Assembly (NCBI RefSeq): GCF_014647495.1
Contig: NZ_BMPH01000021.1
Span: forward strand, 1-37,027
Source: Glutamicibacter protophormiae
Lineage (GTDB): Bacteria; Actinomycetota; Actinomycetes; Actinomycetales; Micrococcaceae
Reading direction: 5' to 3'
Length of the DNA stretch: 37,027 nucleotides
Translations under genes and position numbers: made by a program
Notes under the pieces: model-generated
The model's database searches: none
What the model was told of the DNA's origin: nothing
Seen by the model: only the letters and a program-made list of their open reading frames with translations
Part shown: piece after piece, positions 13,047-36,575 of the stretch
Layout: each line of letters begins with the position of its first letter
Numbering within the stretch: the stretch's first letter is position 1

Positions 13047-14549
13047 CTACCGCGCCTGCCGGTGGATCGACTTGTAGCTCAGATAGGCGGCCAGTCCTTC
13101 CGGCCCGTACTCGGTGCCGAGTCCCGAATCGTGCCGTCCGCCGAAGGGGGCAGCGTGGTTGGAGGCGAAGAAGTTCACCCCGACGCTGCCGGTGTCCATG
13201 CGCTCGGCCACTGACAGGGCGTGTTCCTCGTCTGCGCCGAAGACCAGGCCGCCCAAGCCGAATTCGGTGTTGTTGGCCAGGGAGACGGCTTCGTCCTCGG
13301 AAGAATACTTCAGCACCGTGATGACCGGACCGAAAATTTCCTCGCGCGAGATCGCCATGTCCGGGGTGACGTCAGCGAAGACCGTGGGCTGGATGAAGAA
13401 CCCGTCCGCCAGGTCTCCGCCCAGCTGCGCCGTGGCGCCGCCGGTCACCGCGCGGGCGCCTTCGGCATGCCCTGCCTCCAGGTAGCCCAGCACCGTCTGG
13501 TACTGGCTGCGGTTGGCCGAGGGCCCGAAGACCGTGGCAGGATCCAGCGGGTCGCCCTGCGGGGCCTCGGCAATGGTGGAGGCCACCACGTCCACCACTT
13601 CGTCATAGCGTTCGGCAGGTGCCAGGATGCGGGTGGAGATGTAGCAGGTCTGCCCGGTGTTGCGCATGCAGGAACGGATCAGCCTCGAGCTGAGCAGGCC
13701 CAGGTCCGCATCCGGCAGCACCAGCGCGCTGGACTTGCCGCCCAGTTCCAGGGTGACCGGGCGCAGCAGCTCGCCGCAGGCCGCGGCGATTTTGCGGCCC
13801 ACCGGGGTGGACCCGGTGAATGCCACCTTGGAGACCAGCGGGTGGCGCACCAGCTCATCGCCCAGCCGCCCCGGGCCGGTGACCAGGTTGGCCACGCCCG
13901 CAGGGACCCCGGCGGCGTCCAGTGCATCCATGATGATGCGGAAGGACAGCGGGGTGGGGGAGGCAGGTTTCATGACCACGGTGCAGCCCGCCAGCAATGC
14001 CGGGGCCAGCTTGATGACCATCAGGTTGATCGGGAAGTTCCACGGGGCGATCAGTGCGCAGACGCCCACGGGGTCGCGGCGCACCAGGGACTCTCCGGCC
14101 CCATTGGGGAACGGGCGCAGGTCCTCCTTTTCCAGCAGCGGGGCCAGCGAGGCGAAGTACCGGAAGATGCCCGCGGCATTCGCCGCGGCCCCGCCGGTTT
14201 CGGAGACCGGCGAGCCGTTTTCCAGCGTATTGGTCAGCGACAGTTCGGTGGCCCGAAGCTCGATTTCCGCGGCGATGCGCAGCAGCAGCTCGGCCCGCTC
14301 GGAGGGGGAAGTTCCCTTCCATGGCGCCGAATGCAGCGCGTGGTGGGCGGCGCGGACCGCGGTGTCCACGTCCTGTGCGTCGCCGGAGGGGACCGAACCC
14401 CACACGGCGCCGGTGGCCGGGTCGGTGACCTCGATGCGTCCGGTGCCCCGCGAGCGCGTCCACCCGCCGCCGATGAAGTGCGTGTCCACATGGCGGTAGG
14501 GCAGCAGCAGTTCCTCGCGCCGGGCTGCGGCTCCGGTCAGCGTGCTCAT
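13047..14549 (-). CDS. creC: aldehyde dehydrogenase (CreC-like, 4-hydroxybenzaldehyde oxidation)
   Basis: A 500-residue NAD(P)+-dependent aldehyde dehydrogenase. Visible are the N-terminal region, the PWNFPINL and KPASPTPLS cofactor blocks, general base Glu268 in LELGGKSS and nucleophile Cys302 in RNTGQTCYIS, so all catalytic residues are present. The frame runs on upstream, but the start is the ATG at 14549 because it overlaps the stop of the HD gene (ATGA, 14549-14546). As last gene of the operon it matches CreC of the C. glutamicum 4-cresol pathway, which oxidises 4-hydroxybenzaldehyde to 4-hydroxybenzoate. The enzyme class is certain; the substrate is inferred from synteny. Confidence 0.88.
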   Translation of the reverse strand: MSTLTGAAARREELLLPYRHVDTHFIGGGWTRSRGTGRIEVTDPATGAVWGSVPSGDAQDVDTAVRAAHHALHSAPWKGTSPSERAELLLRIAAEIELRATELSLTNTLENGSPVSETGGAAANAAGIFRYFASLAPLLEKEDLRPFPNGAGESLVRRDPVGVCALIAPWNFPINLMVIKLAPALLAGCTVVMKPASPTPLSFRIIMDALDAAGVPAGVANLVTGPGRLGDELVRHPLVSKVAFTGSTPVGRKIAAACGELLRPVTLELGGKSSALVLPDADLGLLSSRLIRSCMRNTGQTCYISTRILAPAERYDEVVDVVASTIAEAPQGDPLDPATVFGPSANRSQYQTVLGYLEAGHAEGARAVTGGATAQLGGDLADGFFIQPTVFADVTPDMAISREEIFGPVITVLKYSSEDEAVSLANNTEFGLGGLVFGADEEHALSVAERMDTGSVGVNFFASNHAAPFGGRHDSGLGTEYGPEGLAAYLSYKSIHRQAR

Positions 14550-15214
14550 CGCAGCACCGCCGTGCGCAGCAGGGCCCGGGAGCGGGCCAGGTCTGCGGTG
14601 GCCATTTCCACCGCTGCCTGCGTGATCAGCTCGGGAATGATCTCGGTTTCCAGCCGGTCGGTGTACATGGCGGGGTTCTGCCCGAACCAGCCCGAAGCCA
14701 GCGCGATGCCGGCGTGGTCGAAACGCCACAGCCGGTCCGCGTCGCGCATCAGCGCGTCCTCCAGGGTGTAGGCGTTCGGGCGGGTGTCGTGCCCGTCGAT
14801 GATCGTGCAGACCTCGTCGATGAACTGCGCGTCGTAGCCCAGGGCGGGCAGCACGCGGCGGGCCACCAGGCAGCCCTCGCGTTCGTGCTCGTAGCGGATG
14901 TCCGCGGTGCGCCACTCGCCGCGGAAGCCGTCGGAGATGATCTTCTCCTGGTCCACGTGCGCCCAGCCGGTGTCGTGCAGCAGCGTGGCGACCAGCACCA
15001 AGGTGCGGTCCGCCTCCGGGTGCGCGTCGCACAGCCGGCGGGCGAAGGACAGGGAGATGGGCAGGTGGATGTCGTTGCCGCGGGCGCGGGTCTCGGGGAC
15101 CACCGCCGCCCACAGGGCCTCCAGCTGGCCGTCCGCGTGGTTGTCCAGGGCAATGGGGCCGGTGTTGATGGGGCCCGTGGCCGGCAGCGGCCGGGCGTCG
15201 TTCAGGGTTGTCAT
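14546..15214 (-). CDS. creD: HD-domain phosphohydrolase (CreD-like)
   Basis: A 222-residue HD-superfamily metal-dependent phosphohydrolase. Metal-ligand candidates are His50, His80-Asp81 (LLHDTGW), His110 (YEHE), His142-Asp143 (IIDGHDTR) and Asp158/Asp160 (RDADRLWR). In the C. glutamicum pathway CreD removes the phosphate from the oxidised alkylphenyl phosphate, for example 4-hydroxymethylphenyl phosphate; the same step is proposed here because all other partners are present in the same order. The ATG at 15214 follows TGAGGACACC; a start at 15277 would add 21 residues overlapping the upstream gene's 3' end. A close relative is encoded at 24960-25649. Confidence 0.85.
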   Translation of the reverse strand: MTTLNDARPLPATGPINTGPIALDNHADGQLEALWAAVVPETRARGNDIHLPISLSFARRLCDAHPEADRTLVLVATLLHDTGWAHVDQEKIISDGFRGEWRTADIRYEHEREGCLVARRVLPALGYDAQFIDEVCTIIDGHDTRPNAYTLEDALMRDADRLWRFDHAGIALASGWFGQNPAMYTDRLETEIIPELITQAAVEMATADLARSRALLRTAVLR

Positions 15215-15269
15215 GGTGTCCTCAGGCCTATCAAGTCGTGGGAAATCGGCGTTGTGGGGAAAACAAGTG

Positions 15270-16562
15270 TCAGGCAATCAGCGTCTTGAGCATGGTGCCG
15301 GGGTCGGCGGCCGCGGACGGGTCGATGTTCTTCCCGGCGGCCAGGGCCTGCTTCACTGCCATGAAGTCCAGCGGCGCGTTCACGCAGTCCGCGGCGATGA
15401 CCTGCCCGCCGCGGTAGTACAGCACGGTGAACTTGCCCTTCTGCGGGACCTCGCGCTTGACCGTGGAATCGAAGCCCATGGACAGGCCCGCGATCTGCAG
15501 CTTCATGTCAGCCTGGTTGGACCAGAACCACGGGATGCCGGCGTAGGCTTCGCGCTGGCCCATCAGGGCGTAGGCGGCGACCTTGGCGTGCTCCACCGCG
15601 TTGTTCACGGATTCCAGCCGGATGCGCTCGCCGTCCGGGGCGCCGGGGACCGGGTTGGGCATGTTCGCCACGTCCCCGACCACCAGGGTGTGCCCGTCGG
15701 AGGCGATGGCCGCCTCGTCGACCACGATGCCGTTGTCGACCTCGAGCCCCAGCTGCTCGCCGAGCTGGGTGTTGGGGATGACCCCGATACCCACCAGCAC
15801 GATCTGCGCGGGGATGATTTCCCCGGATTCCAGGTGGACCGCGCGGACCGCGCCGTCCCCGGCGATGCGCGAGACCCTGGCATTCAGGTGGATGTCCAGG
15901 CCGCGGGCGCGGTGCTGCTCAAGGAAGTAGGCGCTGGTGTCCTCGCCGACGGCGCGGCCCACCAGGCGCGGGCCGTATTCGATGACGGTGACCTTTTTGC
16001 CCATGGCCTGCAGGGAGCTGGCCGCCTCCAATCCGATGAACCCGCCGCCGATGACCACCACGTCAGTGGCGGCCGGGGCCAGCTCCTTGAGCTTCAGCGC
16101 ATCGTCGGCGTTGCGCAGGTAGACCACGCCGTCCAGTTCGCTGCCCGGGACCTCGAACACGCGCGGCCGGGCGCCGACGGTCAGCGCCAGCCGGGTGTAG
16201 GGGTACCGCGCCCCGCTGCGGCCGGTGGCCACACCGGAGCCGTCCGGGTTGGAGGCGATGTCTTCGATGCGTTCGCCCTTGACCAGGGTGACGTTGTGCT
16301 CGATCCAGTAGTCGTTGGAGCGGAAGATCAGCGATTCGCTGCCCACCTTGTCTTGCAGGAATTCCTTGGACAGCGCCGGGCGCTGGTAGGGGCGGTGGTC
16401 CTCGTCCCCGAGCAGCGTGATGTGCCCGGTGTAGCCCAGGGCGCGCAGCGAGATGGCCAGCTGGACCCCGGACTGCGAGGCGCCGATGATCAGCAGCCCG
16501 GTGGCGGTGCCCGCCGCGGGGGCCGGGGCGCCGCCGGTGGAGGGGAGTGTTGCGGTGTTCAT
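15270..16562 (-). CDS. creE: FAD-dependent ferredoxin reductase (CreE-like)
   Basis: A 430-residue NAD(P)H:ferredoxin reductase of the putidaredoxin-reductase/rubredoxin-reductase family. It has two Rossmann sites, one for FAD near the N-terminus (LLIIGASQSGVQLAISLRAL) and one for NAD(P)H (VVVIGGGFIGLEAASSLQAM), plus the family blocks YQRPALSKEFL and VVGDVANMPNP. It should pass electrons to the adjacent 2Fe-2S ferredoxin and on to the P450. The first glycine motif reads GASQSG rather than the common GAGxAG, a variant seen in this family. The start at 16562 lies two bases after the ferredoxin stop; the longer frame upstream is a shadow of the ferredoxin gene. Confidence 0.88.
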   Translation of the reverse strand: MNTATLPSTGGAPAPAAGTATGLLIIGASQSGVQLAISLRALGYTGHITLLGDEDHRPYQRPALSKEFLQDKVGSESLIFRSNDYWIEHNVTLVKGERIEDIASNPDGSGVATGRSGARYPYTRLALTVGARPRVFEVPGSELDGVVYLRNADDALKLKELAPAATDVVVIGGGFIGLEAASSLQAMGKKVTVIEYGPRLVGRAVGEDTSAYFLEQHRARGLDIHLNARVSRIAGDGAVRAVHLESGEIIPAQIVLVGIGVIPNTQLGEQLGLEVDNGIVVDEAAIASDGHTLVVGDVANMPNPVPGAPDGERIRLESVNNAVEHAKVAAYALMGQREAYAGIPWFWSNQADMKLQIAGLSMGFDSTVKREVPQKGKFTVLYYRGGQVIAADCVNAPLDFMAVKQALAAGKNIDPSAAADPGTMLKTLIA

Positions 16563-16564
16563 GG

Positions 16565-16885
16565 CTAGACCTGGGTTTCCGGGGTGGCGACGTTGAGGGT
16601 CTGGCCCTCGCACATCTTGATTTGGCAGGACAGGCGGGAATTCTCCTCGCGGTCCACGGCGGTGCCGTAGAGCATCTCGTCTTCCATCTCGCCCATCGGA
16701 TCCAGCGACTCGAAGTCTTCCGGGGCCACGAACACGTGGCAGGTGGCGCAGGACAGGGAGCCGCCGCATTCGCCCACGATCCCGGCCACGCCGTTGCGGA
16801 CCGCCGTTTCCATGACGGAGTCGCCGGCGGCGGCGTCCACGGTGCGGGTCTGGCCTTCGAAGTCGGTGAAGTTGATAGTCGCCAT
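16565..16885 (-). CDS. creF: 2Fe-2S ferredoxin (CreF-like, putidaredoxin type)
   Basis: A 106-residue adrenodoxin/putidaredoxin-type ferredoxin. Cluster ligands are Cys40, Cys46, Cys49 (CGGSLSCATCH) and Cys87 (RLSCQIKM), the C-x5-C-x2-C-x37-C pattern of electron donors to class I bacterial P450s. The ribosome binding site AGGAGGAACCATC directly precedes the ATG. It lies between the reductase (2-base gap) and the SDR gene (36-base gap) and is the expected shuttle between CreE and CreJ. Confidence 0.92.
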   Translation of the reverse strand: MATINFTDFEGQTRTVDAAAGDSVMETAVRNGVAGIVGECGGSLSCATCHVFVAPEDFESLDPMGEMEDEMLYGTAVDREENSRLSCQIKMCEGQTLNVATPETQV

Positions 16886-16921
16886 GATGGTTCCTCCTGA
16901 ACGGTTAGGCGTAAAGCTGGG

Positions 16922-17668
16922 TTAGATGAACTGGCGTCCGCCGTCGACGACGAGCGTCTGACCGGTGATGAACGAGGAGTCCTCGCCGGCCAGGAACAGC
17001 GCGGCACCCACGATGTCCTCCGGCTGGCTGGCGCGCTTGAGCGCCCCGCGGTCCACCCCGTAGCTGGAGGCGTTCTCCATGAGCCCCAGGCTGGCCTCGG
17101 TCAGCGTGAAGCCCGGGGCGATGGTGTTCACGGTGATTTCCCGGCGTCCCAGCTCCTTGGCCATGACGCGGGTCAGCGCAATGACCCCGCCCTTGGAGGC
17201 CACGTAGTGGGCCCACTGCTCGGAGCCGGAGTAGACGGTGGCGCTGGCCAGGTTGATGACCCGGGAGCCCGCTCCAAGAAAGGGGGAGACCGCGCGGGAA
17301 ACCATCCACGGGCCCTTGAGATTCACATTCATGACCTTGTCCCACTCGTCCGTGTCGATCTCCTCGAACGGGGTGCGGGTGACGGTGGCGTAGATGGCGG
17401 CGTTGTTGATCAGCACCGCGATGCTGCCGCCGGCGAACTCCGCCGCGTCCTTGGCCAGCGCGTCGGTGGATGCGGTGTCGGTGACATCCACCGTGAAGGC
17501 CGCCGCCTCGGCTCCGGCCTGGCGCACCAGGCGGACCGTTTCCTGCGTGCCGGCCGCGTCGATGTCAGCGGCGGCGATGGCGTAGCCGCGGGCCGCGAAG
17601 CCCAGGGCGAAGGCCCGTCCCAGGCCGCCGGCGGCGCCGGTGATGAGCACCGTAGGAGAGCTGTTCAT
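16922..17668 (-). CDS. creG: SDR-family alcohol dehydrogenase (CreG-like)
   Basis: A 248-residue classical short-chain dehydrogenase. The cofactor loop is TGAAGGLG at 10-17, Asp35 after strand 2 favours NAD+ over NADP+, the NNA motif is at 88-90, and the catalytic residues are Ser142, Tyr155 and Lys159 (YVASK). In the cre scheme CreG oxidises 4-hydroxybenzyl alcohol to the aldehyde after dephosphorylation. The ATG follows GAAAGGCACATTCC. The 138-base gap to the upstream creH gene contains two strong hairpins. Confidence 0.87.
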   Translation of the reverse strand: MNSSPTVLITGAAGGLGRAFALGFAARGYAIAAADIDAAGTQETVRLVRQAGAEAAAFTVDVTDTASTDALAKDAAEFAGGSIAVLINNAAIYATVTRTPFEEIDTDEWDKVMNVNLKGPWMVSRAVSPFLGAGSRVINLASATVYSGSEQWAHYVASKGGVIALTRVMAKELGRREITVNTIAPGFTLTEASLGLMENASSYGVDRGALKRASQPEDIVGAALFLAGEDSSFITGQTLVVDGGRQFI

Positions 17669-17707
17669 GGAATGTGCCTTTCAAATGGTGGAGAACTGTG
17701 GTGTTGC

Positions 17708-17788
17708 GGGTGCCGGCCGGGGATCGGGGGGAAAAGAACCGGCCGGCACCCTTGCGGTTCCGGAAGCTTGGGGGAACCTCCGGAACCG
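17708..17788 (-). promoter_or_regulatory. two tandem hairpins between creH and creG
   Basis: GGGTGCCGGCCGG (17708-17720) pairs perfectly with CCGGCCGGCACCC (17739-17751), and CGGTTCCGG (17755-17763) with CCGGAACCG (17780-17788). They fill the only large gap between the kinase half and the oxidation half of the operon. Partial termination or mRNA processing/stabilisation that sets different levels of CreJIH and CreGFEDC is the natural reading; neither stem is followed by a T-run. Confidence 0.55.
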
Positions 17789-17806
17789 GTCTGCGGCGCC
17801 CGGGGA

Positions 17807-19672
17807 TCAGGCGTGCGAGTGGCTGTGGGCTCCCGGCCCGGTCAGGGCCGGCTGCGCGCCCAGGATTTCCACGGTGCCCTTGGTGCCGTCAACCCGCAGC
17901 AGGTCTCCGGTCTTGATGGTGGTGGAGGCGCTGCCGGTGCCGGTGACCGCCGGCAGGTCGTATTCGCGGCAGACGATGGCCGCGTGGGACATCATGCCGC
18001 CGATATCCGTGACGGTGGCCGTGATCTTGCCGAAGATCGGGCCCCAGCTCGGCGCGGTGACCGGAGCCACCAGGATTTCGCCGGGCTGTACCTGCGTGAG
18101 CTCGTCCGCGTGCATGATGACGCGGGCCGGGCCCTCGACCAGGCCGGGGGAGGCCGCCATGCCCTTGAGCGTGCTGCCGTCCTGGGCCTCGTCCGCGCCC
18201 AGCCACTGCTGCACCTGTTCGGTGGTGATGCCCCAGAGCATGCGGGTGAATGGTTCGGTGATCGACTGCGGCGGGGTGTTCAGCGCCGGGGCCGGCCGGG
18301 CGGTTTTCAGCGCGTCCACGATGCCCTTGCGGTGGGCGATCTTCTCCGGGAGCACCACCGCGCCGATCGGGGTGCCGGAGCCGACGCCCCAGCTGGTGAC
18401 CAGGTCGAAGAGCACGTCGCGGACCTCGTTGCGGCTCAGGTAGAGCATGTCCTCGGGCTCGGCGAAGAGCCCGGCGTCGGCGAGCATGCGCCCGAGCTCG
18501 CGGACCTTGCGCCAGAAGACGCCCATGGTCCAGTGCTCGATGTAGAAGTTGTGGTTTTCCACGTACGGGTAGGCGGTGGCCGCCAGCGTGCGCTTGGCGT
18601 CGAAGACCGCGGCGACCTCCGGATCCAGCAGCTCGCGGTACTCCTCCACGATGCGTTCCTTCTCCGCGATGAGCTTCTGCGTGGGGCGCAGGATCTGCGC
18701 CCCGCCGCGGGCCCGGCGGATGTAGTCCGCGATGAAGCCCAGCGGAATCTCCTGGTGCACGTTCCAGTACTTGTCATGCGCGTAGAAGCCGTTGCCGATG
18801 GTGAAGTTGAACCACGGGTCCTGGGCCTGCTCCCACTGGGCCATCCAGCGCTCGCCGCCGGCGGCCGCGGCGATGGATGCCAGGGTGGCGGCCGGGTCGT
18901 CGGTGTTGGCGAAGTGCTCGTCCAGCTCCAGTTCCACGGCCAGCAGCGCCAGCGCCTTGAGCTCGTCGTCCGGGCGGAAGAGCTCCATGTCCACGCCCTG
19001 CACCATGGTGGCGATGGACTGGTCCGGGATGTTCGGGAAAACTTCCTTGCAGAAGTTGAAGAAGTCCAGGTAGGCGATGTAGCCCAAGTTCAGGAACTCG
19101 AAGTGGTACTGCCAGTTCTGGTAGGCCAGCTGGATCAGCCGGTCGTAGTTCTCCAGCAGGACTTCCGAGCCGTCCTTGCCCACGCCGTTCTCGATGTCCT
19201 CGAAGGGGACCTTCTCGGGCAGCGGTGCGAAGGACAGCGTCTCCATCTCCGCAATGGTGCCCTTGACCTTCACATGCCAGTTGGCCAGCTTGGTCTCCCA
19301 ATTGGCGAAGTAGTGGCCGATGCGCGCCTCGAAGTCCGGCACGCGGGCGGCGATCTGCTCTTCCGGAACCGGGATGGGCGACATGTACAGGTAGCCCAGG
19401 TGGATGCGGAAGTCGATGCCGTTGGCGTTGGGGATCATCAGGTGGCGGGCGTTGTACTGGCCCAGGCACTTCACGGCGAATTCGCCACCGATGGTTTCGA
19501 AGGGCTTGAAGACGGTGGGCCAGTGCTGCGAATCGCAGAACCAGAACTTGGCGTCTTCCTGCTCCTTCAGTGCGTCCTGGAACACCAGGTAGTACGGGTA
19601 GATCTCTTCCCATCCTTCGGCGCCGGCGGGCACCGGCAGGTCGGATGGCTTGGGGAAGGACTTCATTGTCAT
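17807..19672 (-). CDS. creH: PEP-synthase-like phosphohistidine subunit of an alkylphenol kinase (CreH-like)
   Basis: A 621-residue protein with a C-terminal PEP-utilising mobile (swivelling phosphohistidine) domain: IGGMMSHAAIVCREYDLPAV with phospho-acceptor His563. The long N-terminal region (about 1-500), rich in Trp, Phe and Tyr, should bind the phenolic substrate. The size and split from the ATP-grasp part match subunit 1 of phenylphosphate synthase from Thauera and CreH of C. glutamicum, which phosphorylates 4-cresol together with CreI. The tail ends in His-rich AHSHSHA. The ATG at 19672 follows AGAAAGGGTGCACGACC; the longer frame upstream is a shadow of creI. It should receive phosphate from CreI. 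Confidence 0.85.
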   Translation of the reverse strand: MTMKSFPKPSDLPVPAGAEGWEEIYPYYLVFQDALKEQEDAKFWFCDSQHWPTVFKPFETIGGEFAVKCLGQYNARHLMIPNANGIDFRIHLGYLYMSPIPVPEEQIAARVPDFEARIGHYFANWETKLANWHVKVKGTIAEMETLSFAPLPEKVPFEDIENGVGKDGSEVLLENYDRLIQLAYQNWQYHFEFLNLGYIAYLDFFNFCKEVFPNIPDQSIATMVQGVDMELFRPDDELKALALLAVELELDEHFANTDDPAATLASIAAAAGGERWMAQWEQAQDPWFNFTIGNGFYAHDKYWNVHQEIPLGFIADYIRRARGGAQILRPTQKLIAEKERIVEEYRELLDPEVAAVFDAKRTLAATAYPYVENHNFYIEHWTMGVFWRKVRELGRMLADAGLFAEPEDMLYLSRNEVRDVLFDLVTSWGVGSGTPIGAVVLPEKIAHRKGIVDALKTARPAPALNTPPQSITEPFTRMLWGITTEQVQQWLGADEAQDGSTLKGMAASPGLVEGPARVIMHADELTQVQPGEILVAPVTAPSWGPIFGKITATVTDIGGMMSHAAIVCREYDLPAVTGTGSASTTIKTGDLLRVDGTKGTVEILGAQPALTGPGAHSHSHA

Positions 19673-19758
19673 GGTCGTGCACCCTTTCTCAGAAGGTTCG
19701 GCACTTTGCGAGTGGCCGAGGTGTGGGGTGGAGCGTGGAAACAGCGTGGATACGTGGG

Positions 19759-20847
19759 TCAGCTGACGATCTTCGACAGGGAGGCGGTGATCGAAGAGAC
19801 GCCGCCGAATCCCAGCGAGGAGGCGTAGCCTCCGGCGGAGGCCTTGGGCACCGCGGGCTTGGAGGAGTGCACGGTTTCCGGGCGGGCCTGGAGCAGCAGC
19901 AGGTTCTCCCCGTCCGGCAGGTCGGCGTCGATGGCCCACTCGATGTCCTGCGGGGACTTGTAATGCTTCTCCGCCCGCTTGGCCAGCTGGGCCACGGCGG
20001 ACAGCTCGTCGCTGCTCAGGCAGCGCACCGTGCGGCGCTCTTCCGGGACATCCCTTTCCACCAGGGTGTTGGTGGACGGGTCGGGGATCATTTCGGCATG
20101 CTTGTCGCCGATGTGCTCGGTAATCACCGCGAGGGTGACCTTGTCCAGCTGGATGTTGTCCGGCGTGACGGTTCCGGAGACCACCATCTCGCCCACGCCC
20201 CAGGAGGCGTCCACGGTGATCTTGGAGCGGTCGCCGTTGGTGGGATCCAGGGTCATGGCCACGCCGGCGGTCTTGGCGTTGACCATCTTCTGCACCACCA
20301 CGGCCATGCACAGCCCGTCATCCGGGATGTTGTTCTTCAACCGGTAGAGGATGGCGCGGCTGGTGTACAGCGAGGCCCAGCAGGCGCGGATGTGCTCGCC
20401 GACCGAATCGAACCCGGTCAGCCACAGGTAGGTGTCCTGCTGTCCGGCGAAGGAAGCATCGGGCAGGTCCTCGGCGGTGGCGGAGGAGCGCACGGCCAGC
20501 GGGGCCTCGGAATCGAAGCGGGCCTGCAAGGCGTCGTACGCTGCCTGGGTGACCTCGCGCAGGTCGGCGGGAACCGGGCGGGAAGTGATCAGCTCGCGGA
20601 TGGCGGCGCTGGCGGCGTCCACCGCGGCGATGTCCTCCGGGTCCAAGCCGTCCAGCTGGGCTTTGATGCTGTCTTCCAGCCCGGTGCCCATGAAGGCGCG
20701 GAAGGCGGCGGTGTTCACCACGAATCCGGGAGGGACCGGCATGCCGGCGGCGGTCATGGTGACCAGCGAGGCGCCCTTGCCGCCCAGGCTGTCCAAGGTG
20801 GGTTCCTTGCCGCCGTCGAAGAATTCAATGAAGTCGTTGTTGCTCAT
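19759..20847 (-). CDS. creI: ATP-grasp (PEP synthase N-domain) subunit of an alkylphenol kinase (CreI-like)
   Basis: A 362-residue protein equivalent to the ATP-binding N-terminal part of PEP synthase/pyruvate phosphate dikinase. It has LGGKGASLVTMTAAGMPVPP near the N-terminus, LAVRSSATAEDLPDASFAGQ, and ends its domain with LLLLQARPET. It lacks the phosphohistidine and PEP-binding domains of full PEP synthase, which are supplied by the separate CreH protein, as in phenylphosphate synthase subunit 2. The ATG at 20847 is two bases after the P450 stop, with GAGG upstream. Its expected role is to split ATP and phosphorylate the histidine of CreH, which then phosphorylates the phenol. Confidence 0.87.
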   Translation of the reverse strand: MSNNDFIEFFDGGKEPTLDSLGGKGASLVTMTAAGMPVPPGFVVNTAAFRAFMGTGLEDSIKAQLDGLDPEDIAAVDAASAAIRELITSRPVPADLREVTQAAYDALQARFDSEAPLAVRSSATAEDLPDASFAGQQDTYLWLTGFDSVGEHIRACWASLYTSRAILYRLKNNIPDDGLCMAVVVQKMVNAKTAGVAMTLDPTNGDRSKITVDASWGVGEMVVSGTVTPDNIQLDKVTLAVITEHIGDKHAEMIPDPSTNTLVERDVPEERRTVRCLSSDELSAVAQLAKRAEKHYKSPQDIEWAIDADLPDGENLLLLQARPETVHSSKPAVPKASAGGYASSLGFGGVSSITASLSKIVS

Positions 20848-20849
20848 CG

Positions 20850-22151
20850 TTAAGCCTCAGATCGGGAAGTGGAGTCGGCATTCAGCTCGACGTTGACGAA
20901 GTCGGGAACGCGGAAGGACAGGTTCTTCCGGAAGGTGATGGCACCGCCGTCGACCAGTTCAAGGTTCGGCAGCGCGGCGGCCAGTTCTTCCAGCGCGATC
21001 TTGGCCTGGAGCTTGGCCAGCATGTTGCCCAGGCAGTAGTGGATGCCGAAGCCGAAGGACAGGTGGTCGCGGGCGTTGGGCCGGGTGATGTCGAAGTCCT
21101 CGCCGTTCTCGAAGCGGGATTCGTCGCGGTTGGCCGAGCCCATGAGCAGCAGCAGTTCCGCACCCTGCGGGATCTGCACGCCGCCCACCTCGGTGTCCGC
21201 CAGCGCCTTGCGGCGCCATCCCACGATGGAGCCCGAGTAGCGCAGCACCTCGTCGATGGCCTTGGGGATCTGCTTGGGATCCGCCACGACGGCTTCCCAG
21301 GCTTCGCGGTGCTCCAGCAGCACGCGCACGCAGTTGGAGATCAGCGTGGTGGTGGTTTCATGGCCTGCGAAGAGCAGCGAGTAGAGCAGCGAAGCGATCT
21401 CGTGGTCGGTGATGTCCGCGCCGTCCTTCTGGGCCTGGACCAGGTCCGCGGTGAGGTTGTCGCCGCCGGCGGCGTGGGCCTGGGCCACCTGGGCCTGGCA
21501 GCGGTTCCAGTACTCGACCAGGTTGTGCGCGTGGGGGATCTGCTCCTCGTCGCTGAGGTCTCCCCAGGTCATGGCACCGCGGGAGTCGCTCCAGCGCTTG
21601 TAGGTGTCCACCATTCCCACGTCCTCGCCGATCAAGGTGAGGATGGTGATAGTCGGCAGCGCGTAGGCCAGATCCGCCACGATGTCCGAGTGGTTGGTGC
21701 CGTTGGCGAGCATCGCGGAGATGGAGTCCTTGACGTTCTGCCTGATCATCGGCTCCAGGGCCTTGAAGCGGCGCGGGGTGAAGGCCTTCTGCGCCACGGC
21801 CCGGATGCGGGTGTGCTCCGGCGGGCGTCGGGCCGACAGGCCCGAGTAGGTGGTGAATCCGCCCTCGGTCATGATCTGCGTGGCCTGCGGGCCGCGCTTG
21901 CGCACCGGGGCTTGGGCGTTTTCCGAGGAGAAGGTCTCCCAGTTTTCGAAGACCGACTTCACGTCGTCATAGCGGGTGATGACATACAGTCCGGTGCGCT
22001 CGTCGAACATCACCGGCTGTTCGCTGCGCATCCGTGCGTAGGCGGGGAAGGGGTTCTCCATTGCGAACGGCTCGTACCCGTGGTGGTCTGCCGGGGCTTG
22101 CGCTCCGAAACCCATTGGGCATCCGCCGGAGACGGCTGGGGTGCTGGTCAT
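20850..22151 (-). CDS. creJ: cytochrome P450 (CreJ-like, alkylphenyl-phosphate oxidase)
   Basis: A 433-residue soluble class I cytochrome P450. The heme loop is FGFGIHYCLG at 366-375 with thiolate ligand Cys373; the I-helix oxygen-activation motif is AGHETT at 262-267; the K-helix ExxR is Glu301-Arg304; the PPEHTRIR block lies near 110. All are intact. In C. glutamicum CreJ hydroxylates the benzylic methyl of 4-methylphenyl phosphate and needs the phosphate as an anchor; the same is inferred here from the complete set of partner genes. The ATG at 22151 follows CCCCAAGGAGCAGATTCC; an ATG 108 bases upstream would include promoter sequence. First gene of the operon. Confidence 0.9.
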   Translation of the reverse strand: MTSTPAVSGGCPMGFGAQAPADHHGYEPFAMENPFPAYARMRSEQPVMFDERTGLYVITRYDDVKSVFENWETFSSENAQAPVRKRGPQATQIMTEGGFTTYSGLSARRPPEHTRIRAVAQKAFTPRRFKALEPMIRQNVKDSISAMLANGTNHSDIVADLAYALPTITILTLIGEDVGMVDTYKRWSDSRGAMTWGDLSDEEQIPHAHNLVEYWNRCQAQVAQAHAAGGDNLTADLVQAQKDGADITDHEIASLLYSLLFAGHETTTTLISNCVRVLLEHREAWEAVVADPKQIPKAIDEVLRYSGSIVGWRRKALADTEVGGVQIPQGAELLLLMGSANRDESRFENGEDFDITRPNARDHLSFGFGIHYCLGNMLAKLQAKIALEELAAALPNLELVDGGAITFRKNLSFRVPDFVNVELNADSTSRSEA

Positions 22152-22236
22152 GGAATCTGCTCCTTGGGGAAGTCGACGAGTCACGGTGTGACCCGTGCAA
22201 CATTGATCGACACCCAGTGTTGTCCATGGCACAGTC

Positions 22237-22269
22237 GGAAGGGAAGCAATCCCTTCCACTCAGTGGAAG
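22237..22269. promoter_or_regulatory. overlapping palindromes upstream of the P450 gene, candidate IclR operator
   Basis: CTTCCACTCAGTGGAAG (22253-22269) is a perfect 17-base palindrome with a single central base. It overlaps a second inverted repeat, GGAAGGGA (22237-22244) and TCCCTTCC (22250-22257), sharing the CTTCC arm. The site is about 100 bases upstream of the P450 start, in the 136-base gap after the IclR gene. TTCCA-n5-TGGAA symmetry is of the kind bound by IclR-family dimers. A smaller repeat, GTCAC/GTGAC (22180-22184/22188-22192), lies nearer the start codon. Confidence 0.5.
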
Positions 22270-22287
22270 CCTAGTTTTTTGGCCTGC

Positions 22288-23103
22288 TCAGCCCTCGCTT
22301 TCGGGCACGTTCATGTCAGGCCCGGAAATGATTCCCAGAAGAGTCTCCAGTGGAATATGCGAGGTGGCGGCCTCAATTCGTTTGGAGATTCCATAGAGCA
22401 CGGGCAGGTGGCGTTCCATGTTCGCGGCGTGCGAGGTGGGAATGACCAACCCGATGGAGCAGCCCAAGCGGCCGGTGTGGTAGACCGGAACGGCGATTGA
22501 ACAGGTTCCCAGCCGCACCTCTTCGCGGGTGATCGCATAGCCGTTGTGCTTGGCGCGGTTCAGCTCGTTGCGCAGCTGCACGGGGTTGCTCCGGGTGTGC
22601 GCGGTCATGGGTTCCATCGGCTGGGCGAGGTAGGCGTCCATGACCCAGTCCTCGGAAAACGCCAGGATGGCCTTGCCCACCGCGGTGGCATGCAGCGGCA
22701 GGCGCCCGCCCACGCGGGAGACCCTGGCAACCCTCCTGGTGCCGTAGACCCGGTCGATGTACAGCGCCATGTTTCCGTCGCGGATGGCCAGCTGGCTGGT
22801 TTCCCCGGTCAGGGAGAACAGGTCCTGGACGAAAGGGCGCGCGGTATCGCGCAGTTGCCGGCCGGTGTTCTGGGCGATGGCCCACAGCCGCAGGCCCAGC
22901 TGGACGCCGCCGTTGCCGGTGCGGCTGAGGATTCCGGCGTCGACCAGCTCGCCGACCAGGCGGTGCGTGGTGGACAGCGGAAGATCTGCCGACTTGGAGA
23001 TTTCGGTCAGGTTCAAGGACCTGCGAGTGGTTTCGAAGGCGGAGAGAATCGCCAAGATCTTGGACGTGACGCTGCGTCCCGGTTGTGAGCTTCCTCCGGC
23101 CAT
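22288..23103 (-). CDS. IclR-family transcriptional regulator
   Basis: A 271-residue regulator with an N-terminal winged helix (about 10-70; SLNLTEISKSADLPLSTTHR is the recognition-helix region) and a C-terminal IclR effector domain (about 85-255; LPLHATAVGKAILAF and a conserved Cys in GTCSIAVPV). IclR proteins commonly control aromatic catabolism in response to a pathway compound. The ATG at 23103 follows CGGAGGATCC; longer upstream frames are spurious. It is transcribed in the same direction as the cre operon, 136 bases ahead of the P450 gene, so it is the likely regulator. Whether it represses or activates cannot be told from sequence. Confidence 0.9.
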   Translation of the reverse strand: MAGGSSQPGRSVTSKILAILSAFETTRRSLNLTEISKSADLPLSTTHRLVGELVDAGILSRTGNGGVQLGLRLWAIAQNTGRQLRDTARPFVQDLFSLTGETSQLAIRDGNMALYIDRVYGTRRVARVSRVGGRLPLHATAVGKAILAFSEDWVMDAYLAQPMEPMTAHTRSNPVQLRNELNRAKHNGYAITREEVRLGTCSIAVPVYHTGRLGCSIGLVIPTSHAANMERHLPVLYGISKRIEAATSHIPLETLLGIISGPDMNVPESEG

Positions 23104-23710
23104 GGATCCTCCGAGGCAATGGTAGTGAATCGGGGTCGGGCCAACCCGACGGCGACAACTCAGAATACCTGTCCTGTCGCGGACGCGACATCCCGGAATT
23201 CGGTCTGCGCAGCATGCAGCAGGATTGCTGGGCAGGCCATGGCACCTTGGTTGCCTGCGGATCAAATGAATGCGGCGGGGAGCGCTGCGCGATCACCGCC
23301 GGCGCGGCGGCCCAGTACCAGCCGCGAATTCCAGACCTGAAGGTGGGAAGGGCTTGAGTCGCGAACCGGGGAAATGAAACACGAATCCACAATGCACGTG
23401 TGAGGAGGCATTTTCCTGGCCGCTTAACAAATCCGCCAAATTCGAACGCGGGCTGAGGAGAAAATTCTGGTCATGTAATGTTTTTCATGGTCATCGAAAA
23501 GGTTGAACCTGAATTCGGGAAAGCCGATTGAATTCCACGTCCGAATTTTTTCTTGGATTCAGGTGGTTGATTGTTCGGGAATCATGGCCATTCCAAACAA
23601 CAGCCGGCGCCATCGCCGCTGACCGGTCCATAACTATCGGACATCGTCTGAATTCATAGCTGGTCGCAAGACCGTAGAGTAGCCAAACGCCAAGCATTGG
23701 AGCATTCGGC
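23104..23710. other. intergenic region upstream of the IclR gene
   Basis: About 600 bases separate the divergent IclR and HdeD-like genes. Next to the IclR start are two small palindromes, GTCGGG-CCAA-CCCGAC (23135-23150) and TGTCGCGGACGCGACA (23175-23190). The part from about 23380 to 23700 is notably richer in A/T. Short frames here have no recognisable product and overlap real genes, so no gene is called. Confidence 0.6.
23175..23190. promoter_or_regulatory. 16-base palindrome upstream of the IclR gene
   Basis: TGTCGCG and CGCGACA are inverted around a GA spacer, 72 bases upstream of the IclR start codon. It is a possible autoregulatory site but differs in sequence from the palindrome at 22253-22269, so the same protein need not bind both. 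Confidence 0.3.
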
Positions 23711-24292
23711 ATGAACAAGCAGAAGATCACTACGCAGGTAAATTCCTTCAGCAACGGAGTGAGGGTCGCTTTCGGAATCAGCGGCATTGTCGCCTTGGTT
23801 TTGGGCCTCCTGATCCTGATTGCGCCCATGAAAACCGCATCGATTATCACCGCAATTGTTGCGCTCTACGCACTGGTCTCAGGCGTAATCTACCTGGCAA
23901 TCGGAATTTTTTCGCGGACCCAGAGCAACCCGAAACGCATTCTGAACTGTGTATTGGGTGCCATGTTCCTGGCCGCGGGCATCCTGGCCTTCACCGATTT
24001 GGACAACAGCACCGTGCTGCTGGCAAGTTTCGTCGCCATCATGATCGGCATCGTCTGGGTGGCCGAAGGGGTCGTGGCGCTGACAACCTTGAGCCGATCG
24101 CCAAACCGGCTGGTCAGTGGCGGCTATGCAGTGCTTTGCGTGATTGCCGGTGTGTTGGTGCTCTTCGGACCGTTTACCTTTGCTTCCATCCTGTGGCTCA
24201 TCCTCGGCATTTCGCTCATGGTGCTCGGAGCGATCCAGGCCCTTCGAGCCTTCAGCTTCAAGGGCAACGTGGTCATTATCGGCCAGAACTAG
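23711..24292 (+). CDS. HdeD/DUF308-like membrane protein
   Basis: A 193-residue protein with six predicted transmembrane helices arranged as three pairs (about 20-60, 75-115, 130-180), the pattern of the HdeD/DUF308 family. Members are linked to acid or general stress in enteric bacteria, but the biochemical role is not established. The ATG follows TTGGAGCATTCGGC. A 189-base gap separates it from the next plus-strand gene, so co-transcription is possible but not shown. Confidence 0.8.
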   Translation: MNKQKITTQVNSFSNGVRVAFGISGIVALVLGLLILIAPMKTASIITAIVALYALVSGVIYLAIGIFSRTQSNPKRILNCVLGAMFLAAGILAFTDLDNSTVLLASFVAIMIGIVWVAEGVVALTTLSRSPNRLVSGGYAVLCVIAGVLVLFGPFTFASILWLILGISLMVLGAIQALRAFSFKGNVVIIGQN

Positions 24293-24481
24293 ATTCTGCA
24301 ATGGCCGGTCTGCCGGCGGGAATGGCCGTGCACCGCGCACCGAGGCCTACGACTCAGGGTGGAGATGGAGCAGTCCGGATCTACCCCGTGCGGGCGAACC
24401 AAAGAACGCGGGCGATCAGTAGGCTGGAAACGTCCGCACCGCATCGAACGCACTGACATCACCGCCCGAGGAGCACGAAGA

Positions 24482-24949
24482 ATGCCTGTACCACCAACCG
24501 CCATCCGTGGATCTTTCGCCAAGAAACTGGCTCTGGGCGGAGCCGCCGTGGCGCTGGCCCTGGGAGCCGCCGGGTGCGGCGCCGTTGAGGATTTCGACAA
24601 GGCCACCTCGGACTCCTGGGCAGTGACCTATGAAATTACGGTCTCCGGAGGCGACGCCAGCAAGATCACCGATATCAAGTACCTTGAATCGGAAAAGCGC
24701 GGCGAAGCCGGTACGGAACTGACCTTGCCCTCCGGGGAAACGACGCTTGATGCCAAGGAGAACGCAGTCTGGAGCCTTGAAAGCATCGTGACTGCGCAGA
24801 AGGACGCGGCCATTTCCGCCATGCCGGGAAAAGAGGCCACGGCCACCTGCCGCATCCTGCTTGACGGCGTCAAGGAGATCGCTACCGAAACCTCGGCTCC
24901 CGGCGAACGCGTGGAGTGCGCGGCCACAACCCCGGCCTTCTCCAAATAG
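24482..24949 (+). CDS. MmpS-like lipoprotein
   Basis: A 155-residue lipoprotein. The signal (KKLALGGAAVALALGAAGC) ends in lipobox LGAAGC with acylated Cys32. The mature part is a small beta-rich domain with VTYEITVSG, ITDIKYLE and a CRILLDGVKEIATETSA block that parallels the C-terminal half of mycobacterial MmpS accessory lipoproteins (IxCRIxVDGxxxxExxxxG). No MmpL transporter is adjacent, so function is open. The ATG at 24482 has GAGGAG nine bases upstream; a longer frame to 24359 would bury the signal peptide. Confidence 0.75.
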   Translation: MPVPPTAIRGSFAKKLALGGAAVALALGAAGCGAVEDFDKATSDSWAVTYEITVSGGDASKITDIKYLESEKRGEAGTELTLPSGETTLDAKENAVWSLESIVTAQKDAAISAMPGKEATATCRILLDGVKEIATETSAPGERVECAATTPAFSK

Positions 24950-24959
24950 CTGCCGGAGG

Positions 24960-25649
24960 TCAGTCGGAAAGCGCCAGTCTCTGCTCAAAGAGATTGGCGC
25001 TTTCCACTGCCACGAAGGCGCTGGCCATGAATCGCGCGGCATCCGTGAAGAGATGATCGCTCACCCGGGACTCGACCAGCTGGAAAGCTTCGGAACGGGT
25101 AAGGCCGAACCAGTCCATCACGGTGTCCACACCGTGCGGGGTCAGCCTCCAGAGCTTGTCGGCATCCTTCACCAAGGAATCCTCCAGGCTGGTTGATTCC
25201 TTGCGCGAATCATGCCCGTCGATAATGAACACGATGCGCTCGCTGCGTTCGGCATCGAATCCTTCGCCGTGCAGCAGTTCTGCGGCAAGCTCCGCGCCGG
25301 ACTTTTCATGCTGCAGCACCAGTTCCTTGTTGCCGGCTCCCGGGGCGATGGCGGACAAGACCAGCTGCGGATCCACCTGCGACCAGCCAATGTCGTGGAG
25401 CAGGATTGCCGGCAGCACCACCAGCGGATCCGCCTGCGGATGATGCTTGAGCAGCGACTGGGCGAGTGACAGCGAATAAAGTGTGTGGGCGTCATTGCTG
25501 CGCACCGAAAGATAGGTCTTGGCTTTTTCCCACAGCCGGGCCAGCAGGGGAAACTGTTCAAAGACGTCGGTTTCCTTGGGCGGAATGAAATTACCGACGT
25601 CGTGGCCATAGTGGTTGGCCAAAGGCTGCAGCTTGGTCATGGGGCTCAT
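24960..25649 (-). CDS. HD-domain phosphohydrolase, paralogue of the operon's CreD
   Basis: A 229-residue HD protein. Metal-ligand candidates line up with those of the CreD-like gene: His55, His85-Asp86 (LLHDIGW), His114, His146-Asp147 (IIDGHDSR) and Asp162/Asp164 (KDADKLWR). The shared blocks LLHDxGWxxVD, IIDGHDxR and LEDxLxxDADxLWR show that the two are members of one subfamily. It lies outside the cre operon, transcribed in the same direction as a luciferase-like oxidoreductase 171 bases upstream. A second phospho-ester substrate is possible. Alternative start: ATG 25640. Confidence 0.82.
   Translation of the reverse strand: MSPMTKLQPLANHYGHDVGNFIPPKETDVFEQFPLLARLWEKAKTYLSVRSNDAHTLYSLSLAQSLLKHHPQADPLVVLPAILLHDIGWSQVDPQLVLSAIAPGAGNKELVLQHEKSGAELAAELLHGEGFDAERSERIVFIIDGHDSRKESTSLEDSLVKDADKLWRLTPHGVDTVMDWFGLTRSEAFQLVESRVSDHLFTDAARFMASAFVAVESANLFEQRLALSD
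24966..25005. terminator. long hairpin at the convergent gene ends
   Basis: GGAAAGCGCCAGTCTCT (24966-24982) pairs with AGAGATTGGCGCTTTCC (24989-25005), a 17-bp stem with one G-U, closing a 6-base loop. It lies 16 bases after the lipoprotein stop but inside the last codons of the oppositely oriented HD gene, so its sequence serves both as terminator and as coding DNA. Confidence 0.75.
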
Positions 25650-25820
25650 GTTGCCACCAGGACCCCGTCACGGGAAGCCATGTCTTCCATCCAGTGGATG
25701 CCTGCTTTCCCGGAACCGGGAATGCAGGGGGGCGGCTCGGGCGGTCGAAGCTCCGTTGCGGCGCCTAATCCACCCCCGGCCTCGTGCGCACCGCAATGCG
25801 AAGTGACGCCCTGGGGCCGG

Positions 25821-32902: not shown

Positions 32903-33054
32903 TCGTTGGCCACTGGTTAAGAACCCGACGGACGATTGCGCTTTGGCAAGCCCGCTAGCCATTGACATGTATCGAGCGACCCATACACGTTGGATCCCTG
33001 TGCCATATAGTGAATTTGAGCGCCGTGCGGCCATGTAGACCACAAGGAGACCAA

Positions 33055-35364: not shown

Positions 35365-35366
35365 AG

Positions 35367-36575
35367 GTGCGGACACACTTGATTTTTGACGAGCTCGAGA
35401 CCCATCCTCAAACGGTGGAATTGAGCGCTGATGAAGCGTTAGCACTGCAAGACTCGAAGCTGCTCAACGTCTCTCGGGCATGGGGTGGCGGCTGGAATAT
35501 CTCCCCGACGGGGCTGGTGGGGGCTGTCCAAGTTGACGACCTGTTAATCGAGGTGCGTCCGAAAGCCCGGGTCGGGCTGAACCGGTTGATGTTCTTGCTC
35601 GGATATGCGGCAGATCCCGGATTTCGGGAGGACGACGTAGACGCAGAGGAGAAACCCGATTTGTTCACTGCGATCACCCATTCTTTCGTTCGGCAATGTG
35701 AGAGGGCTTTGAAAAGGGGACCGATCTCCAGCTACGTAACCGTGGACGATTCGCTGCGTGTGCTCCGTGGCCGGATTCGTGTGGGGGACCAGCTTTCGCG
35801 GCATCTTGGCCTTCCTGTCCCGCTTGAAGTGACCTATGACGAATTCACGATGGATATTGGGGAAAACCGGATCCTGCGGTCTGCCCTAAGGATGTTGCTC
35901 TGCCTGCCGGGGGGATCTCCCGAAATCAGATCGCGTCTGTCGCATCTGGACAGGAAACTTGATGGAGTTGGCTTTCTCCTGAAAGGCAATCCATTGCCTG
36001 AGTGGCAGGAAACCAAGGCAAATGGCCACTACGTGGCAGCACTGCGGTTGGCATCATTGGTGCTAAACAGCCTATCGGTGGAAGCAGGGAAAGGCGGTCT
36101 GCGAATGAGTTCGTTTGCCGTTGAGATGCAAAATGTCTTCGAGGACTTTGTGACGGTGGCCCTTGGCGAGGCTTTTGCTTCGTTCCCCGGCACTGTCCAT
36201 GCTCAATTCGAAAGCCATTTGGACGAGATCAACCCGGGAAGCAAGCCGAGAACGAAGATGTATGTTGATGCTGTCTACTGCGAAAGTGGGCTGCCACGAA
36301 TAGTTTTTGACGCGAAGTACAAGGCCTCTTTTTCGGGAAACTATTCGAATCCCGACGAGTACCAGATGCTCGCGTACTGTACAGCGCTCGAGGTTCCCCG
36401 GGCCTGGCTACTGTACGCAGGATCGGGCAAGCCACGTCTAGTGAAAGTCCGCAATACAAGTAAGGAAATCGTTCATTTTCCGCTGGACCTGTCCCTAAGT
36501 CCTGGCCGATTATTGGATCGAGTGCACCAACTTGCCGCTATTGCGCACAAGGCTCAGGCAACGGCATACGGATAG
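35367..36575 (+). CDS. mcrC: McrC nuclease subunit
   Basis: A 402-residue McrC-family protein. The N-terminal part contacts McrB (LIEVRPKARVGLNRLMFLLG is the family block near 60). The C-terminal PD-(D/E)xK nuclease fold has Asp301 (YVDAVY) and Asp315-Ala-Lys317 (FDAKYK), followed by the DEYQMLAYC helix. All catalytic residues are present. It starts at GTG 35367, two bases after the mcrB stop. Together the pair makes a complete system with no methylase, as expected for modification-dependent restriction. The left flank is a decayed catabolic cluster and the right flank an ISL3-type element. Confidence 0.9.
   Translation: MRTHLIFDELETHPQTVELSADEALALQDSKLLNVSRAWGGGWNISPTGLVGAVQVDDLLIEVRPKARVGLNRLMFLLGYAADPGFREDDVDAEEKPDLFTAITHSFVRQCERALKRGPISSYVTVDDSLRVLRGRIRVGDQLSRHLGLPVPLEVTYDEFTMDIGENRILRSALRMLLCLPGGSPEIRSRLSHLDRKLDGVGFLLKGNPLPEWQETKANGHYVAALRLASLVLNSLSVEAGKGGLRMSSFAVEMQNVFEDFVTVALGEAFASFPGTVHAQFESHLDEINPGSKPRTKMYVDAVYCESGLPRIVFDAKYKASFSGNYSNPDEYQMLAYCTALEVPRAWLLYAGSGKPRLVKVRNTSKEIVHFPLDLSLSPGRLLDRVHQLAAIAHKAQATAYG

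Follow-up and report, generated by a model that had tools for sequence, protein, structure and literature searches.

A complete cre gene cluster in Glutamicibacter protophormiae with a predicted IclR operator and a second HD-domain hydrolase

The cre cluster and its genes

The window analysed here is a stretch of 37,027 nucleotides that makes up the entire contig C21 (NZ_BMPH01000021.1, assembly GCF_014647495.1) of Glutamicibacter protophormiae, whose genome comprises 3.83 Mb in 38 contigs and is 99.99% complete. It carries the genes creC to creJ and an adjacent gene for an IclR-family regulator, all of them open and on the minus strand, from the creC stop (13047) to the iclR ATG (23103). Passages of PMC12167813 and PMC7764795, crediting Du et al. 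2016, describe the cre operon of Corynebacterium glutamicum as serving 4-cresol catabolism via phosphorylated intermediates, and PMC8796525 is a further source that, in the part available, cites the cre enzymology. The locus is very probably a complete orthologous cre system for 4-cresol, in which the IclR protein would control both creJ-creC and the gene of a second HD-domain hydrolase, here called HDup, through palindromes. The genes and features concerned are the following.

13047..14549, minus strand: creC, aldehyde dehydrogenase (Pfam Aldedh, 2.8e-150), 69.2% identical to C. glutamicum CreC; would catalyse the last step to 4-hydroxybenzoate
14546..15214, minus strand: creD, HD-domain phosphohydrolase (Pfam HD) retaining the HD metal residues, 63.2% identical to C. 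glutamicum CreD; would remove the phosphate tag
15270..16562, minus strand: creE, ferredoxin reductase (Pfam Pyr_redox_2 and Reductase_C), 67.2% identical to C. glutamicum
16565..16885, minus strand: creF, 2Fe-2S ferredoxin (Pfam Fer2), 70.8% identical to C. glutamicum
16922..17668, minus strand: creG, short-chain alcohol dehydrogenase (Pfam adh_short_C2, 1e-55), 72.2% identical to C. glutamicum
17807..19672, minus strand: creH, phenol-binding/swivel subunit of the aryl kinase (Pfam PEP-utilizers), 76.7% identical to C. glutamicum; swivel motif TDIGGMMSH with His563
19759..20847, minus strand: creI, ATP-grasp subunit of the aryl kinase (Pfam PPDK_N, 1e-108), 63.1% identical to C. glutamicum
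20850..22151, minus strand: creJ, cytochrome P450 for phosphorylated alkylphenols, identical to PDB 5xjn at 305/405 residues
22254..22268, no strand: predicted IclR (CreR) operator before creJ, TTCCACTGAGTGGAA, a perfect site 117 bp before the creJ start
22288..23103, minus strand: iclR (creR), IclR-family regulator (Pfam IclR_C and HTH_IclR)
23104..24959, no strand: spacer between iclR and HDup, with a DUF308 gene (23711-24292, plus strand) and a lipoprotein-like open reading frame (ORF; 24359-24949, plus strand)
24960..25649, minus strand: HDup, second HD-domain hydrolase (Pfam HD) and CreD paralogue, upstream of iclR
25685..25699, no strand: predicted operator before HDup, ATCCACTGGATGGAA, with one mismatch, 50 bp before the HDup start

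The initial annotation, made from the sequence alone, had proposed eight consecutive minus-strand genes with the content and order of C. glutamicum creC-creJ and an IclR regulator beside them, and this description stands: every gene has its expected Pfam domain, the limits fit exactly, and the eight orthologues are 63-77% identical and arranged as a table of PMC7764795 lists them, from cg0637 creC to cg0645 creJ. As the C. glutamicum reference we used the locus (L103) whose CreJ is 100% identical to PDB 5xjn over 400 residues; the 75.7% identity of CreJ refers to a C. glutamicum protein that is N-terminally short, the record reading N beyond. Intergenic gaps between creC and creJ range from -4 to 138 bp. 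The translations contain AGHETT and the heme Cys (P450), TDIGGMMSH (CreH), LHD and IDGHD (CreD) and YVASK (short-chain dehydrogenase), which we take to be the motifs characteristic of these proteins. The system as predicted goes further than the 13047..23103 limits, which fit cre and iclR, and takes in HDup at 24960-25649 and the palindromes at 22254-22268 and 25685-25699. The genome, previously called Arthrobacter-like, can be placed more sharply in Glutamicibacter, the nearest named relative being Glutamicibacter soli (L003): over 433 residues its CreJ is 96% identical, and G023, the genome that gives this match, belongs to the same genus.

Membership of the cre pathway had been made dependent on the P450 and the CreH/CreI pair not being closest to unrelated pathways, and both proved closest to cre. 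Among solved structures, CreJ has its best matches in two C. glutamicum CreJ entries, including 5xjn (E 6e-211 and 9e-211), the next P450 following at E 5e-77. The window combines a two-subunit CreH/CreI kinase (swivel His and ATP-grasp) and a CreJ-type P450 with CreE and CreF in one co-directional CDEFGHIJ cluster. Judged by its genes, this is an orthologous cre operon of the ordinary kind.

The kinase was the component for which another pathway had to be considered. Passages of PMC12167813 present HpeHI, CreHI and PpsAB as homologous kinases, so a CreHI-like pair could in principle belong to an Hpe or phenylphosphate-carboxylase pathway instead of cre, and PMC9618137, in the part available, reports separate clades for the hydroxyphenylethanone, phenol and alkylphenol kinases. 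Our CreH tree comprised 89 rows (87 different) and was a quick search without bootstrap, with long branches to four outgroups: L108, which is Hpe-like (carboxylase genes, Cys before His), L109, which adjoins phenylphosphate carboxylase genes, Thermomicrobium and Haladaptatus. In it, 85 CreH rows including that of the window form one group (99% by SH-aLRT, a Shimodaira-Hasegawa-like approximate likelihood ratio test) apart from the outgroups, and the swivel motif TDIGGMMSH is identical in 85/85. No biotin carboxylase, such as HpeCBA of the Hpe pathway, and no phenylphosphate carboxylase occurs among the Pfam matches of the 29 window ORFs, while the control locus L109 carries ppcB, ppcD, ppcA and ppcG beside its kinase. 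An Hpe or phenylphosphate assignment of the window's kinase is contradicted by the clade placement, by the Ser before the swivel His and by the lack of carboxylase neighbours, and we regard it as highly improbable.

Distribution of the operon and the question of its substrate

A pattern scan of 84,980 species genomes returned 116 stretches encoding a relative (E <= 1e-3), from which 80 loci were kept. All eight genes occur in the order J-I-H-G-F-E-D-C in 76/80 loci, creC being cut by a contig end in three of them (L054, L066, L075), and in the remaining four (L014, L029, L052, L082) a contig end falls inside the operon. The iclR gene lies directly before creJ in 68/80 loci, and an adjacent regulator is no peculiarity of this strain. 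The 12 other loci include three with too little upstream sequence (L014, L055, L064) and three in which iclR is displaced (L025, L036, L043), and in the stretch obtained of the last six (L010, L028, L041, L037, L039, L045) no close iclR was found. Among sampled genomes, creJ is present in 48/295 of Micrococcaceae, including 5/18 of the same genus, and in 13/242 of Corynebacterium. The operon found here extends the known pathway to this Glutamicibacter and is widespread in Actinomycetota.

The operon also occurs on plasmids. Two Rhodococcus plasmids, NZ_CP129900.1 (L107) and NZ_CP021355.1 (L110), carry creJ, one being typed conjugative and one mobilizable, and in both a set of toluene-4-monooxygenase genes lies next to the operon (L107 15667-19800, L110 967-5451). 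Toluene-4-monooxygenase yields 4-cresol. The combination could constitute a transferable module leading from toluene to 4-hydroxybenzoate; the available flanks of all 80 genome loci lacked toluene-4-monooxygenase genes at E <= 1e-10.

Variants of the system were also noted. In eight loci of Microbacterium, Cryobacterium and one metagenome-assembled genome (L054, L055, L056, L060, L070, L071, L074, L081), CreE is 49-55% identical to that of the window compared with 66-70% for CreJ, and the ferredoxin reductase may there have been replaced or may evolve faster. An archaeal CreHI-like pair, 37.6% identical in CreH, lies on the Haladaptatus salinisoli plasmid NZ_CP085331.1 (L112, 1-8951) next to genes for a metallophosphoesterase, a zinc alcohol dehydrogenase, an aldehyde dehydrogenase and a Rieske ring-hydroxylating oxygenase, and possibly represents a phosphate-tag phenol route in which the Rieske enzyme replaces the P450.

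The machinery could serve mainly another 4-substituted phenol, for instance 4-ethylphenol or an alkylphenol derived from lignin or amino acids, with 4-cresol as a side substrate. CreJ differs from that of C. glutamicum at 100/405 aligned residues, including 3/47 in the B-C loop and 4/47 in the F-G region (44/47 and 43/47 identical to 5xjn), and the chromosome of Arthrobacter sp. C2 carries two diverged cre operons (L006, L047; CreJ 80% and 68% identical to that of the window), which suggests substrate specialisation. Against this, the I-helix, K-beta and heme-loop segments of CreJ are identical to 5xjn (24/24, 17/17 and 15/15), and both plasmid operons found adjoin genes of toluene 4-oxidation. 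The segment names, and their role in lining the substrate pocket, are those we presume for P450 enzymes. On balance we find a main substrate other than 4-cresol unlikely, though worth keeping in view, and favour 4-cresol as a substrate, with other short 4-alkylphenols probably accepted as well.

Outside the operon, the window holds McrBC-type restriction genes at 32962-36575 (an AAA_5 ATPase and an McrBC component), and the G+C content of 33001-36500, about 0.55-0.56, is below that of most of the window.

The palindrome and the second HD hydrolase

When 85 creJ upstream regions were scanned for dyads, the palindrome CTTCC-N7-GGAAG emerged in 40 of them. In its shorter form TTCC-N7-GGAA it occurs in 66/85 creJ upstreams (dinucleotide shuffles: mean 0.5, maximum 3), 28/57 HDup upstreams (mean 0.38, maximum 2) and 4/83 iclR upstreams (mean 0.38, maximum 2). 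The consensus TTCCRYYSRRYGGAA, with at most one mismatch, is present in 78/85 creJ, 36/57 HDup and 6/83 iclR upstreams, compared with 2/850, 1/570 and 0/830 for letter-shuffled controls. Because the consensus was read from the same sites, the positional control weighs more than the shuffles: a site with at most one mismatch was found in 0/578 upstreams of creI, H, G, F, E, D and C. The 85 creJ upstreams count one genome twice (L027, L106), include near-identical relatives that are not independent, and exclude L014, which has too little upstream sequence. In the genome of G. protophormiae, the creJ site is the sole perfect match.

We predict that the palindrome is the operator of the adjacent IclR protein. 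Compared by eye, TTCCRYYSRRYGGAA fits the group-1 operator consensus of the IclR family, GKTYCRYW3-4RYGRAMC-like, as given in the part of PMC8222616 available. Of the 14 genomic sites with at most one mismatch outside the window, four were examined by ORF list for further regulon members, and none was retained: on C3 the match forms one arm of a hairpin resembling a terminator, those on C14 and C13 fall within ORFs, and that on C6 stands before a FAD_binding_2 protein with no clear link.

HDup was first met before iclR on the Rhodococcus plasmid NZ_CP129900.1, whose protein is 57% identical to that of the window, and in many relatives, and it lies within the examined stretch of 41/80 loci. In a tree of 90 HD proteins, 55 HDup and 35 CreD sequences fall on opposite sides of a branch with support 100/100, which places HDup in a clade of its own outside CreD. 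Residues H55, H85-D86, H114, H146-D147 and D164, which we take to be the HD metal ligands, are invariant in 39 aligned HDup rows, and HDup is therefore probably an active hydrolase. Sixteen positions, each at least 90% conserved in HDup and in CreD, carry different residues in the two groups and suggest that the specificity of HDup is not that of CreD.

HDup and creJ tend to occur together. HDup is present in 44/295 Micrococcaceae genomes, and creJ occurs in 38/44 carriers versus 10/251 non-carriers (38/6/10/241, Fisher p 3e-32, kinship ignored). Of the 38 genomes with both, 24 have HDup within 5 kb of creJ, 7 have the two genes farther apart on one contig, and 7 have them on different contigs. 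Eight of these 14 distant HDup genes were examined, and 8/8 have a site with at most one mismatch.

The position of HDup varies. In L004 and L005 it is separated from iclR by about 131 bp and 22 bp, respectively, and pobA, the gene for 4-hydroxybenzoate 3-monooxygenase, precedes HDup and iclR in L058, L059, L061, L068, L076 and L078. Six loci (L113, L114, L115, L123, L125, L127), all in the genus group g7 that holds Sinomonas, carry HDup beside an iclR 65-67% identical to that of the window and no creJ operon in the 16 kb examined. Around six loci with HDup away from cre, a Pfam search of 10 proteins found no common family except MFS transporters at two (L117, L123).

Such detached pairs make it conceivable that HDup acts on the inducer: as a helper of the regulator, it would destroy a phosphorylated inducer sensed by IclR and thereby set a threshold or reset induction. 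Five of the six Sinomonas-group genomes have creJ elsewhere, none being found in G037 (L115), and HDup has its own predicted operator. A plain catabolic role is favoured over such inducer editing, since no close iclR lies beside HDup in the stretch examined of L116, L122 and L128, and pobA is a recurrent neighbour: in Georgenia (L050, L051, L063) HDup lies downstream of creC, with pobA beside it in 2/3 loci, and HDup neighbours pobA also in Streptomyces and others. We therefore hold the helper function to be an option of low probability. Equally tentative is the broader proposal that, outside Corynebacterium, cre mostly works with two phosphatases governed by a single IclR switch: CreD would release the product, and HDup, with an operator of its own even at a distance from the operon, would edit aryl phosphates, possibly including the inducer of IclR; if true, the phosphate tag would be both a metabolic handle and a signal.

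Several observations weigh against the main reading of the locus. Sites with at most one mismatch are missing from 21/57 HDup and 77/83 iclR upstreams, the HDup site of the window carries one mismatch, and 15 of the 16 such sites in the genome are imperfect, the reversed-pattern control giving 7. The iclR-HDup gap in the window is 1856 bp. Six Micrococcaceae genomes have HDup without creJ, with best sites of 1, 1, 2, 3, 3 and 4 mismatches. In G037 the operon stretch examined (L126, 4266-10411 and beyond) has creH-creC and neither creI nor creJ, in G050 (L119, 8287-9014) broken creC pieces follow HDup, G051 has a short HDup copy, and in G167, a genome only 71% complete, the contig ends inside the gene; for G111 and G141, no cre remnant was found in the 16 kb around HDup. 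Conversely, HDup is missing from 10/48 Micrococcaceae creJ genomes and was not found in 13/13 Corynebacterium creJ genomes, where the only match is 34-37% identical, as CreD is, and where the C. glutamicum record consists partly of N; HDup is thus not indispensable to the core chemistry. Nor is cre the sole route reported in these groups: according to passages of PMC7373764, Glutamicibacter nicotianae W1 degraded both phenol and p-cresol by the ortho (catechol) pathway, and for Rhodococcus opacus 1CP passages of PMC13101518 describe p-cresol routes that begin with ring hydroxylation.

The G050 and G037 loci are apparently decayed or partial systems, and so is that of G205, which was dropped from the HDup carriers after its match (L120) proved CreD-like, 62% identical to creD. 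From 7697, L120 carries a CreD-CreC pair with no other cre genes nearby.

The chief ground for caution concerns which protein is bound. The paralogous IclR regulator GenR of C. glutamicum has the motif ATTCC-N7(5)-GGAAT in a table of PMC8222616, a palindrome of the same TTCC-N7-GGAA architecture, and the protein that binds the cre site could therefore be another, GenR-like member of the family and not the product of the adjacent gene. The cre site differs in its central letters, RYYSRRY, and in its association with creJ and HDup; it precedes HDup, with at most one mismatch, in 6/6 detached iclR-HDup pairs of the Sinomonas group, and iclR, as noted, mostly adjoins creJ. We consider binding by a different IclR-family protein improbable, and retain the adjacent IclR as the predicted ligand of the palindrome.

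Proposed pathway and comparison with known systems

We propose that CreHI would phosphorylate the phenol with ATP via the swivel histidine, that CreJ, supplied by CreE and CreF, would hydroxylate the methyl group of the aryl phosphate, and that after removal of the phosphate by CreD the alcohol would be oxidised by CreG and CreC to 4-hydroxybenzoate. 4-Hydroxybenzoate would then pass to PobA and PcaHG. As expected in the initial annotation, the genes for these later steps lie outside the window, on contig C7, which holds pobA (NF006091, 501 bits at a cut-off of 351; TIGR02360, 388 bits, below its cut-off of 538.7), followed by the beta and alpha subunit genes of protocatechuate 3,4-dioxygenase (pcaH and pcaG, TIGR02422 and TIGR02423 above cut-off). 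The contig also has a pcaB-like gene that scores below its cut-offs. The adjacent IclR protein is predicted to bind and regulate creJ-creC through TTCCRYYSRRYGGAA at 22254-22268 and HDup (24960-25649) through the second copy at 25685-25699, the direction of this regulation and its induction likewise being part of the prediction. HDup would most likely cleave other aryl phosphates of the pathway, differing in oxidation state or alkyl chain, or dead-end products.

The inducer of the C. glutamicum cre operon was still called unknown in a 2020 passage of PMC7764795. Since the predicted operator is seen in 78/85 promoters, the proposed role of the adjacent IclR is directly testable. A description of the cre operator, or of HDup and operator as an extended cre regulon, was not found in the open-licence literature, and subscription papers may hold one. 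HDup raises the question of whether cells also employ phosphate tags as signals, or guard them as such, and together with the operator it bears on the engineering of lignin-phenol conversion, where pathways that phosphorylate phenols attract interest.

Among known systems, HpeHI (the hydroxyphenylethanone kinase) and PpsAB (phenylphosphate synthase) resemble CreHI, according to passages of PMC12167813, in being ATP-dependent phenol kinases that have two subunits and a swivel histidine. They differ in that carboxylation follows instead of P450 oxidation, in their separate clades, and in the Cys that precedes the swivel His in HpeH, where CreH has Ser. The Rhodococcus plasmids share iclR-creJIHGFEDC in identical order with the window, and NZ_CP129900.1 also has HDup before iclR, whereas HDup was not found in the stretch examined of NZ_CP021355.1; both differ from the window in being joined to toluene-oxidising genes and in a CreJ 66-67% identical to ours. 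The closest parallel in content remains C. glutamicum creC-creJ, with which the window shares all eight genes in identical order at 63-77% identity. Its close relatives L104 and L105 have iclR before creJ, and L104-L106 the palindrome before creJ, as in the window, while the predicted regulon of the window differs from C. glutamicum by the addition of a second HD hydrolase.

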